From Candidatus Kapaibacterium sp. (GTDB taxonomy: Bacteria > Bacteroidota > Ignavibacteria > Kapaibacteriales > NICIL-2), in assembly GCA_026003475.1 (NCBI GenBank), contig BPHJ01000001.1:929189-993188 (forward strand): a DNA stretch of 64,000 nucleotides, read 5' to 3'. Under the pieces are notes generated by a model, which saw nothing but the letters and a program-made list of their open reading frames with translations, was not told the DNA's origin and made no database searches. Within the stretch, counting starts at the first letter, position 1. The number at the start of each line of letters is the position of its first letter. This document shows, piece after piece, positions 39,847-47,488 of this stretch. Position numbers and translations under genes: made by a program.

Positions 39847-40197
39847 TTAGTCTGAGGATGATTTTTTCTCGACTGTTGCAATTGCAACCTTTTCGAATCG
39901 AACACGGACGTTATCAGCGACTTGAACGACAACGGTCTTGTCATCAATATCGGTGACCGTTCCATGGATACCGGCGCTCGTGATAACACGGTCGCCACGC
40001 TTGAGTTCATCGAGCATCTTTTTCATTTCCCGTTGCCGCTTTTGTTGCGGACGGATGATGAAAAAGTAGAACACCACGATGATCAGGCCAAACATGACCA
40101 GCGTCGAGATCAGTTGTCCCGATGGATCGGGTGCTCCGGCTGCTTGGGCATAGAGCGCTGGCGCAACGACCAACGCCAAAGCTATCGCAAATCGCAT
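39847..40197 (-). CDS. yajC: Preprotein translocase subunit YajC
   Basis: 116 residues: one membrane helix (LISTLVMFGLIIVVFYFFII) and the family-typical RPQQKRQREMKKMLDELKRG with a short C-terminal tail. YajC accompanies SecDF at the translocon; secD and secF are not in the window. It follows tgt by 24 bases, the usual tgt-yajC order. Confidence 0.93.
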   Translation of the reverse strand: MRFAIALALVVAPALYAQAAGAPDPSGQLISTLVMFGLIIVVFYFFIIRPQQKRQREMKKMLDELKRGDRVITSAGIHGTVTDIDDKTVVVQVADNVRVRFEKVAIATVEKKSSSD

Positions 40198-40221: not shown

Positions 40222-41388
40222 CTATTCGAGAATCGAGCGCTCACCCTGTTGGTCGGGGTAAAATTGCTCGAGAAATTGCTGCGACCATTGACGGAAGGTG
40301 CCGTCGAGTATTTTCTCGCGCGCTGTCCGAACAAGCCAACGGTAGAAAGCAAGGTTCTGCCAAGTGGCGATCATCAAACCGAGAATTTCACCGCTGACAA
40401 ATAAATGCCGAAGATACCCGAGCGAATACGGCTCAACTCCCAATTCTTCCCACGCAGGGTCAATTGGTTCGTCGCTGCACTTGAATCGTTGATTCCGAAT
40501 ATTGAACCGTCCACGGGTGGTAAAGAGTGTGCCGTTCCGCGCATTGCGGGTTGGCATGACACAATCGAACATATCCACACCGAGTGCAATTGCACGCAGG
40601 ATATTTTGAGGTGTACCCACCCCCATCAGATAGCGTGGCTGGTCGCTGGGCAGCAAGTCCGTTGAGCGGTTGGTCAGTTCATACATCAGCTCCACCGGTT
40701 CCCCTACCGCTAAGCCACCAATGGCGTAACCATCGAATGGAATACTGCAGAGCTCCTCGATGCATGTTCGGCGAAGATCGGCAAAGGCACCACCCTGCAC
40801 GATGCCAAACAATTGCTGCCGATAGCCATAGAGAAACGGCTGTGAACAGTGCGCTTCCCAGCAGCGCCGTTCCCACGTCAGACTTCGTACAAGAGCACGT
40901 TCGGCTTCCTGCCGTGATGCGGGATAACCAATGCATTCATCGAACGCCATCATGATGTCTGAACCGATCGAGCGTTGCTGGGCAACGACGCTTTCGGGTG
41001 TGAAAATGTGTCGCGATCCGTCAATGTGGGAGCGGAATTCAACTCCATCATCGAAGACCCGCCGGAGTGAGCCGAGCGAATACACCTGAAAGCCCCCGCT
41101 ATCGGTCAAGATCGCTCCGTCCCAGCGCATCATTCGATGGAGTCCGCCGAAACGTTCCAGCACCTGTTGTCCTGGTCGCAGATACAGGTGGTACGTGTTC
41201 GCAAGAAGGAGCGAATATGAGAGTGTTCGAAGAGTCCGATGGTCGAGCGCCTTGATGGCTCCCTGTGTAGCAACGGGCATGAAAACTGGTGTTTCGACGA
41301 TGCCATGCGCTGTCCGGAGAAGACCAGCTCTGGCTTTCGTTTGCGCATCTGTTGCAACAAGCTCGAACGACTTTTCACGAGTTCGCAT
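40222..41388 (-). CDS. tgt: tRNA-guanine transglycosylase lacking the zinc site
   Basis: Replaces guanine-34 of four tRNAs with preQ1, the queuosine precursor. 388 residues with the active-site D96 (TDSGGFQVYSLGS), the nucleophile D275 (VDMFDCVMPTRN) and GGLAVGE all present. The zinc-ligand segment normally DPECDCYTC reads DPAWEELGV here (W313, E315, V318 in place of three Cys) and the later His is Q344 in ATWQNL. The rest aligns well with the family (YLRHLFVSGEILGL), so this is not a frameshift. Whether the enzyme folds and works without zinc is unknown. Followed by yajC; preceded by a VanZ-like gene (14-base overlap). Confidence 0.93.
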   Translation of the reverse strand: MRTREKSFELVATDAQTKARAGLLRTAHGIVETPVFMPVATQGAIKALDHRTLRTLSYSLLLANTYHLYLRPGQQVLERFGGLHRMMRWDGAILTDSGGFQVYSLGSLRRVFDDGVEFRSHIDGSRHIFTPESVVAQQRSIGSDIMMAFDECIGYPASRQEAERALVRSLTWERRCWEAHCSQPFLYGYRQQLFGIVQGGAFADLRRTCIEELCSIPFDGYAIGGLAVGEPVELMYELTNRSTDLLPSDQPRYLMGVGTPQNILRAIALGVDMFDCVMPTRNARNGTLFTTRGRFNIRNQRFKCSDEPIDPAWEELGVEPYSLGYLRHLFVSGEILGLMIATWQNLAFYRWLVRTAREKILDGTFRQWSQQFLEQFYPDQQGERSILE

Positions 41389-41743
41389 ACGGTTTCCTCA
41401 CCGCAGCTATGGTAACTGCAAGACCGATACCGAGTGCATCTGCACACCAATCAAGCACGTCAGCGCTTCGACCAGGAACGAAGGCTTGGTGGAGCTCATC
41501 AGTAGCAGCAAAGACAAGACCAATAACCACTGCCCACCAGAACCGTCTCGGGTCTGTGATGGGCATTGTTCGCATCGCGAGTATCAACGTCGAACCATAC
41601 AGCATGTACCCGAAGAAGTGGTACACTTTATCGGCAAACGAGAATGGTTGCGGCACCATTGCTGGTTGACTTGATGTGACTACGATTCCCACGCTAAAGA
41701 GCACGGCAGGTAGCCGGTACATCCATCGCCGATATGAGCTCAT
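41375..41743 (-). CDS. VanZ-like membrane protein
   Basis: 122 residues with about three or four membrane segments and the family phrase DKVYHFFGYMLYGSTL plus ATDELHQAFVPGR (Asp/Glu-His cluster). VanZ-like proteins are of uncertain function; some give teicoplanin resistance. It overlaps tgt by 14 bases and nnr by four. Confidence 0.85.
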   Translation of the reverse strand: MSSYRRWMYRLPAVLFSVGIVVTSSQPAMVPQPFSFADKVYHFFGYMLYGSTLILAMRTMPITDPRRFWWAVVIGLVFAATDELHQAFVPGRSADVLDWCADALGIGLAVTIAAVRKPYANS

Positions 41744-47407: not shown

Positions 47408-47481
47408 GCACCCGTAGCTCAATTGGATAGAGCATCTGACTACGGATCAGAAGGTTTGGGGTTCGAATCCCTACGGGTGCG
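47408..47481 (+). tRNA. tRNA-Arg (anticodon ACG)
   Basis: A full cloverleaf: acceptor GCACCCG/CGGGTGC, D-arm GCTC...GAGC, anticodon arm TCTGA-CTACGGA-TCAGA with anticodon ACG (Arg CGN), a short variable loop and a T arm with TTCGAAT. The CCA end is not encoded. ACG is normally deaminated at A34 to inosine by TadA. It lies 19 bases after rpsT and just before a strong terminator. Confidence 0.97.
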
Positions 47482-47488
47482 CACGGAG

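Follow-up and report, generated by a model that had tools for sequence, protein, structure and literature searches.

Introduction

The closest described system to the protein studied here is the zinc-type bacterial tRNA-guanine transglycosylase (Tgt) of Zymomonas mobilis (PDB entries 1pud and 1ozm) and Escherichia coli, in which the three cysteines of a CxCxxC motif and a histidine (together CCCH) are the zinc ligands. Chong et al. reportedly carried out mutagenesis of these ligands in the E. coli enzyme in 1995. In the available excerpts of the literature, E. coli Tgt is described as needing zinc for activity (PMC9508795) and possession of the zinc site is treated as characteristic of both bacterial and eukaryotic Tgt (PMC6165067, PMC3660597), and our search of open-licence PMC papers found no report of a zinc-less Tgt. 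The Tgt encoded in our window, which is the whole stretch of 64,000 nucleotides that was analysed, resembles the zinc-type enzymes in its family score, is predicted to fold like them (1.5-1.7 Å) and shares their catalytic Asp pair, their preQ1 pocket, the residues of the dimer helix and the length of the subdomain, but has neither the CxCxxC motif nor the ligand His.

Loss of a structural zinc has been described for other components of translation. The nearest precedent in logic is GluRS, where, according to the excerpts of PMC4381286, many bacteria naturally lack the structural zinc of a subdomain that positions the tRNA, and a zinc-free domain swapped into the E. coli enzyme gave function equal to wild type; GluRS is a different enzyme and has been studied at the bench, whereas the window Tgt is known from its sequence and a model. 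Zinc-ribbon ribosomal proteins (S14, L31, L36 and others) also occur in forms that have lost the Cys ligands and kept their function, termed C- (PMC3087516, PMC9976891, in part). Several bacteria carry these as Zur-regulated C+/C- pairs, whereas the window Tgt is a single gene, so that the replacement of its zinc site is permanent. The eukaryotic non-catalytic subunit QTRT2 is likewise a diverged Tgt subunit and, as far as the excerpts of PMC3660597 and PMC6165067 describe it, is the mirror image of the present case: it has kept zinc and lost catalysis, whereas in the window Tgt the zinc site is gone and the catalytic residues remain.

Results and Discussion

Identity of the tgt gene

The coordinates of the original prediction, which named no strand, proved exact: the tgt reading frame runs on the minus strand from an ATG at 41388 to a stop codon ending at 40222, with no internal stops, and has the following neighbours.

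40222..41388, minus strand: tgt, tRNA guanosine(34) transglycosylase, 388 aa, zinc ligands absent (TIGR00430, PF01702)
41375..41743, minus strand: VanZ-family protein, upstream of tgt and overlapping its start by 14 bases (NF037970, 65.7 bits)
39847..40197, minus strand: yajC, downstream neighbour of tgt (TIGR00739, 107.6 bits against a cut-off of 44.2)

The protein scores 450.5 bits against the NCBIfam equivalog TIGR00430 (cut-off 306.75) and is covered by the Pfam TGT family PF01702 over residues 18-377, with 470.3 bits. Assignment as an archaeosine Tgt (TgtA, TIGR00432) was rejected at 130 bits against a cut-off of 350. Judged by its sequence, it is an authentic bacterial Tgt that lacks the zinc-site feature of zinc-containing Tgts. 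The genome (G000; 2.16 Mb in a single contig) yielded one Tgt copy, and a second, zinc-type Tgt, which we had considered, was rejected as none was found in that contig. The sole tRNA gene in the window is a tRNA-Arg(acg) at 47408-47482.

Residues at the former zinc site

From residue 187 to 377 the protein aligns with Z. mobilis Tgt (1ozm) without a gap, and the zinc subdomain is therefore gap-free. The three Cys of the Z. mobilis SECHCAVC motif and the His of TEHN align to W313, E315, V318 and Q344, so that the CxCxxC and His structural zinc site is absent, as had been predicted from the window alone.

40339..40467, minus strand: former zinc-binding subdomain, residues 308-350, equal in length to that of Z. 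mobilis Tgt
40450..40452, minus strand: W313, position of the first Cys ligand; TGG in 6/6 genus members including the window
40444..40446, minus strand: E315, position of the second Cys ligand; E in 5/6 genus members, A in one
40435..40437, minus strand: V318, position of the third Cys ligand; V in 6/6 genus members, with GTT, GTC and GTG codons
40357..40359, minus strand: Q344, position of the His ligand; Q in 6/6 genus members, with CAG and CAA codons

The five congeners (72-81% identical) all share W313, V318 and Q344, and four of them E315. Across the six genus Tgts the mean protein identity is 78% and, over the whole gene, 53% of the identical residues use different codons; the codon-level constraint on W313, V318 and Q344 shows that the replaced positions are maintained and not drifting.

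Catalytic residues, substrate pocket and queuosine genes

Conservation of the two catalytic Asp residues and of the GGLAVGE motif, as originally noted, was confirmed.

41101..41103, minus strand: D96, catalytic Asp (Z. mobilis D102), invariant in a 62-row alignment
40564..40566, minus strand: D275, nucleophile Asp (Z. mobilis D280), invariant in the 62-row alignment
40699..40719, minus strand: GGLAVGE, residues 224-230, including V228 (Z. mobilis V233) and E230 (Z. mobilis E235)

The window Tgt retains D96, D150, C152, Q198, V228, E230, D275, R281 and R284, and 185 of 186 aligned rows carry all nine of these residues of the active site, pocket and tRNA loop, the one miss being L002, which is cut at an internal stop. 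Among them are the catalytic Asp pair, residues of the preQ1 pocket and the Arg that contact the anticodon loop. In the preQ1 pocket, C152 and V228 align with Z. mobilis C158 and V233, which are tied to preQ1 versus queuine specificity in the excerpts of PMC3660597.

The queuosine genes, which the original prediction had proposed as a check, are present in the genome: QueC (182.1 bits, cut-off 150.3), QueF (103.1 bits, cut-off 27.3), QueA (311.4 bits, cut-off 267.45; at 657058-658095) and QueG (339.5 bits, cut-off 200); a search of the genome for QueH, the alternative to QueG, found none. Given these four proteins and the preQ1-type pocket, queuosine is most likely the product of the pathway served by this Tgt, and the ordinary preQ1-to-queuosine route is the simplest reading. 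A second, more diverged QueA-like gene lies at G000:C1:535884-537074 (L191) as a 451-aa open frame, its pieces summing to 288.8 bits against the queA cut-off of 267.45.

Predicted structure and a probable zinc-free subdomain

An AlphaFold model of the window Tgt was built from a 62-sequence alignment, with a mean pLDDT of 91.7 and a pTM of 0.91; in the former zinc subdomain the block means of pLDDT are 86 (residues 311-320), 97 (321-330), 96 (331-340) and 96 (341-350). The model has the TIM-barrel Tgt fold and superposes on Z. mobilis Tgt (1ozm) with an rmsd of 1.5 Å (Foldseek TM 0.92 by query length), on human QTRT1 with 1.7 Å (Z 53.5) and on Thermotoga maritima Tgt with 1.2 Å (Z 52.5). Its structural superposition Z is 53.3, and the overlap with zinc-type Tgt covers about 370 residues at 1.5-1.7 Å, an agreement to be read with the caution that AlphaFold may reproduce the family fold without testing its stability. 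The model thus speaks against the earlier suggestion that the protein folds differently. Y325, H328 and E334 align with Z. mobilis Y330, H333 and E339, which we take to be hot spots of the dimer interface; all three are found in 32/32 CCCH rows, and among the 154 rows without CCCH (the cut L002 included) they are kept in 152, 153 and 153, respectively.

Taken together, the sequence and the model make it very probable that this is a zinc-free, preQ1-inserting Tgt in which packing of side chains holds the loop once bound to the metal, and the earlier view of an enzymatically complete but zinc-free protein holds as far as sequence and structure model reach. Such an enzyme would act in the usual synthesis of queuosine, inserting preQ1 in place of G34 in tRNAs with a GUN anticodon, but would have no structural zinc. 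The metal would formerly have pinned the loop to the long C-terminal helix, a role that packing of the W313, L316 and V318 side chains may now fill, and a hydrogen-bonding helix residue (Q344 here, His in most Bacteroidota) may also hold the loop; packed in this way, the subdomain could still serve the homodimer and tRNA binding. D318 is paired with H344 in 71/71 rows and never with Q344, which stands beside other residues in its 37 rows. An Asp-His replacement pair at 318/344 was nevertheless rejected, since the association loses significance once the tree is taken into account (0-1 of 8 independent pairs).

Three other explanations of the sequence were weighed against this zinc-free Tgt. Neither an error in sequencing or assembly nor decay of the gene has any appreciable probability: CxCxxC and His in close relatives had been named beforehand as the sign of an error, and the congeners refute both possibilities, all five lacking the site and carrying the replacing residues described above with silent codon changes, while the reading frame is intact, the loss is clade-wide and we found no point in support of error or decay. 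It is very unlikely that the protein still holds a metal, whether by other residues of its own or with the help of a partner protein; the subdomain does offer other polar residues and C304 is close by in the window Tgt, but position 304 is H, F, F, F and Y in the five congeners, so that there is no conserved alternative Cys there, and site-less relatives have no common Cys/His set in the stretch besides the ligand His itself. No evidence was found for the earlier proposal of metal supplied by another protein. We consider it still more improbable that the substrate has changed to another base, another RNA or DNA. The lost element is described as part of the tRNA-binding scaffold in the excerpts of PMC6165067, which would fit such a change, but C152, V228, the catalytic set and R281/R284 are retained, queC, queF, queA and queG are in the genome and one Tgt was found there; the retained pocket and the other queuosine genes thus argue against the new substrate that had been put forward.

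Distribution in the Bacteroidota

In order to count the loss across the phylum, as had also been proposed, 186 Tgts were aligned: the window's own, 80 from a named genome collection, six from the window's family and 99 drawn from across the phylum. The named-collection rows are the best 80 of 590 matching stretches, which biases the sample to the query's kin. The phylum draw comprised 198 genomes, 195 of them with a Tgt, and 100 of the 195 were read (30 delivered loci, two already in the set, and 70 chosen, mostly one per genus); its rows come from among the matches listed, the weakest (e.g. G073 and G185) lying outside the sample. L002 (internal stop), L189 (same gene as L114) and L079 (from a desulfuromonad) were set aside, leaving 183 rows of Bacteroidota in the wide GTDB sense, with Ignavibacteria and Balneolia.

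CCCH was found in 30 of these 183 Tgts and the site is absent in 153; three ligand Cys are present in 30, one in 24, none in 129 and two in no row. The case had been treated as singular, but absence of the site is the usual state in most Bacteroidota groups read. Site-less rows include Flavobacterium, Tenacibaculum, Hymenobacter, Algoriphagus, Pedobacter, Chitinophaga and Prevotellaceae, and the site is also missing in Parabacteroides distasonis, Bacteroides finegoldii and a Prevotella, which lie outside the 183. CCCH occurs in 3/78 named rows (Melioribacter, a Melioribacteraceae and one Ignavibacteriales), and another Ignavibacteriales, L055, has C-T-S-H at the ligand positions. In the window's order 0/21 rows read carry CCCH; for the other orders of its class the figure is 25/28 genomes read (33 drawn), and for other classes of the phylum 2/56 unnamed rows. 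In the Tgts of two Bacteroidetes MAGs (L050 and L052) four former zinc-loop residues are deleted outright. PDB entry 10fb, which matched a Bacteroidota Tgt best, has ECDCYTC and IHN intact, and among the PDB matches aligned at residue level (3 of 55 and 4 of 43) no solved zinc-free bacterial Tgt was seen.

Number of losses

Trees were computed without the zinc-site columns for 185 rows and for 87 rows with an outgroup. The best trees require five changes (185 rows) and six (87 rows, the Shinella row counted), whereas well-supported branches force one and two, respectively. Several losses within the Bacteroidota are favoured, without proof, because regain of four ligands would be unlikely and the window's class mostly keeps the site. 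A single ancient loss in the phylum, with later regain in some clades, is in our view unlikely. It agrees with the AU test on the smaller tree, where a single clade of all 44 site-less Bacteroidota rows was not rejected (p 0.19), and with the one change forced on the larger tree, but it would have to accommodate the changes on the best trees, the contrast between the window's order and the other orders of its class and the regain itself.

Tgt outside the phylum

Among 39 readable Tgts from outside the Bacteroidota, 37 have CCCH and the two exceptions are Rhizobiaceae, with S-C-A-N (Shinella) and S-C-T-S (Sinorhizobium) at the ligand positions. The Rhizobiaceae loss is separate from that in the Bacteroidota. 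A plasmid collection, which includes some whole chromosomes, was sampled by hand among the matches listed (40 of 69 records). CCCH was read in the Tgts of Acetoanaerobium, Fusobacterium, Paenibacillus, Collinsella, Comamonas, Arthrobacter, E. coli and Paracoccus. In the phylum of L079, 29 genomes were drawn and 28 had a match; 30 Tgt loci were read, one of them too short, and the 29/29 of adequate length have CCCH, L079's own gene among them, with five further matches (four partial) outside the count. The desulfuromonad MAG G204 has two zinc-type Tgts, L079/L197 and L198, 52% and 44% identical to the window's, the former of which may be a transfer from the Bacteroidota side or lie on a contaminant contig. 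Enterobacterial plasmids (H32-H35, H37-H40) carry diverged Tgt-like genes annotated beside 16S rRNA methyltransferase genes.

Since the same loss occurs in most Bacteroidota examined and in two rhizobia, the structural zinc of Tgt looks dispensable, and since most Bacteroidota Tgts read are without the site, the element appears dispensable for keeping a conserved Tgt. We rate the loss as surprising to specialists in its breadth and modest in its mechanism. Site-less Tgts are natural controls for the role of the metal in folding, the dimer and tRNA binding, and they are relevant to the assumed zinc dependence of Tgt and to dimer-interface inhibitors designed from Z. mobilis alone.

Zinc-free ribosomal proteins

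Both the sole L36 and the sole L31 found in the window's genome lack the Cys residues that bind zinc, and CxxC pairs are missing from the S14 encoded in its ribosomal operon. Where a site-less Tgt and L36 or L31 were both read, the ribosomal protein is zinc-free in 6/6 genomes (the window's, Shinella, Sinorhizobium, Parabacteroides, Bacteroides and Prevotella), and in genomes with a CCCH Tgt L36 is of the zinc type in 5/6 (E. coli, for which one of two L36 places in the record was counted, Comamonas, Collinsella, Acetoanaerobium and Paenibacillus). Paracoccus departs from this, having a CCCH Tgt but a zinc-free L31. In a 2009 survey (PMC3087516, Table 2) the Bacteroidetes and Alphaproteobacteria are entered with only zinc-free (C-) L36, L31 and S14, the Chlorobi with zinc-type L36 and L31, and the Fusobacteria with C- L31. 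Strict coupling of Tgt to zinc-free ribosomal proteins was rejected, as it is countered by Paracoccus and by Fusobacterium, which has a CCCH Tgt and, in that table, a C- L31.

The apparent link between the loss of zinc from Tgt and from ribosomal proteins draws on two or three independent lineages and faces two counter-examples, and is a lead rather than a test. The zinc of Tgt may have been shed along with that of some ribosomal proteins, and, with less support than the packed loop, its loss could be one instance of structural zinc disappearing more widely from the translation machinery in lineages in which L31 or L36 are zinc-free as well. The fuller proposal, that Bacteroidota and Rhizobiaceae independently stripped Tgt of zinc as a step in a concerted trend towards zinc-free translation that also fixed C- L31, L36 and S14, is tentative and we hold it to be rather doubtful; if true, the Tgt step of queuosine addition in these bacteria, in contrast to E. 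coli, would be independent of zinc. The widespread absence of the site from Bacteroidota Tgts also makes a connection between zinc supply and tRNA modification open to testing. The alpha operon at L242:11814-14458, its genes named by eye, reads L36, S13, S11, rpoA and L17, with no S4 between S11 and rpoA.
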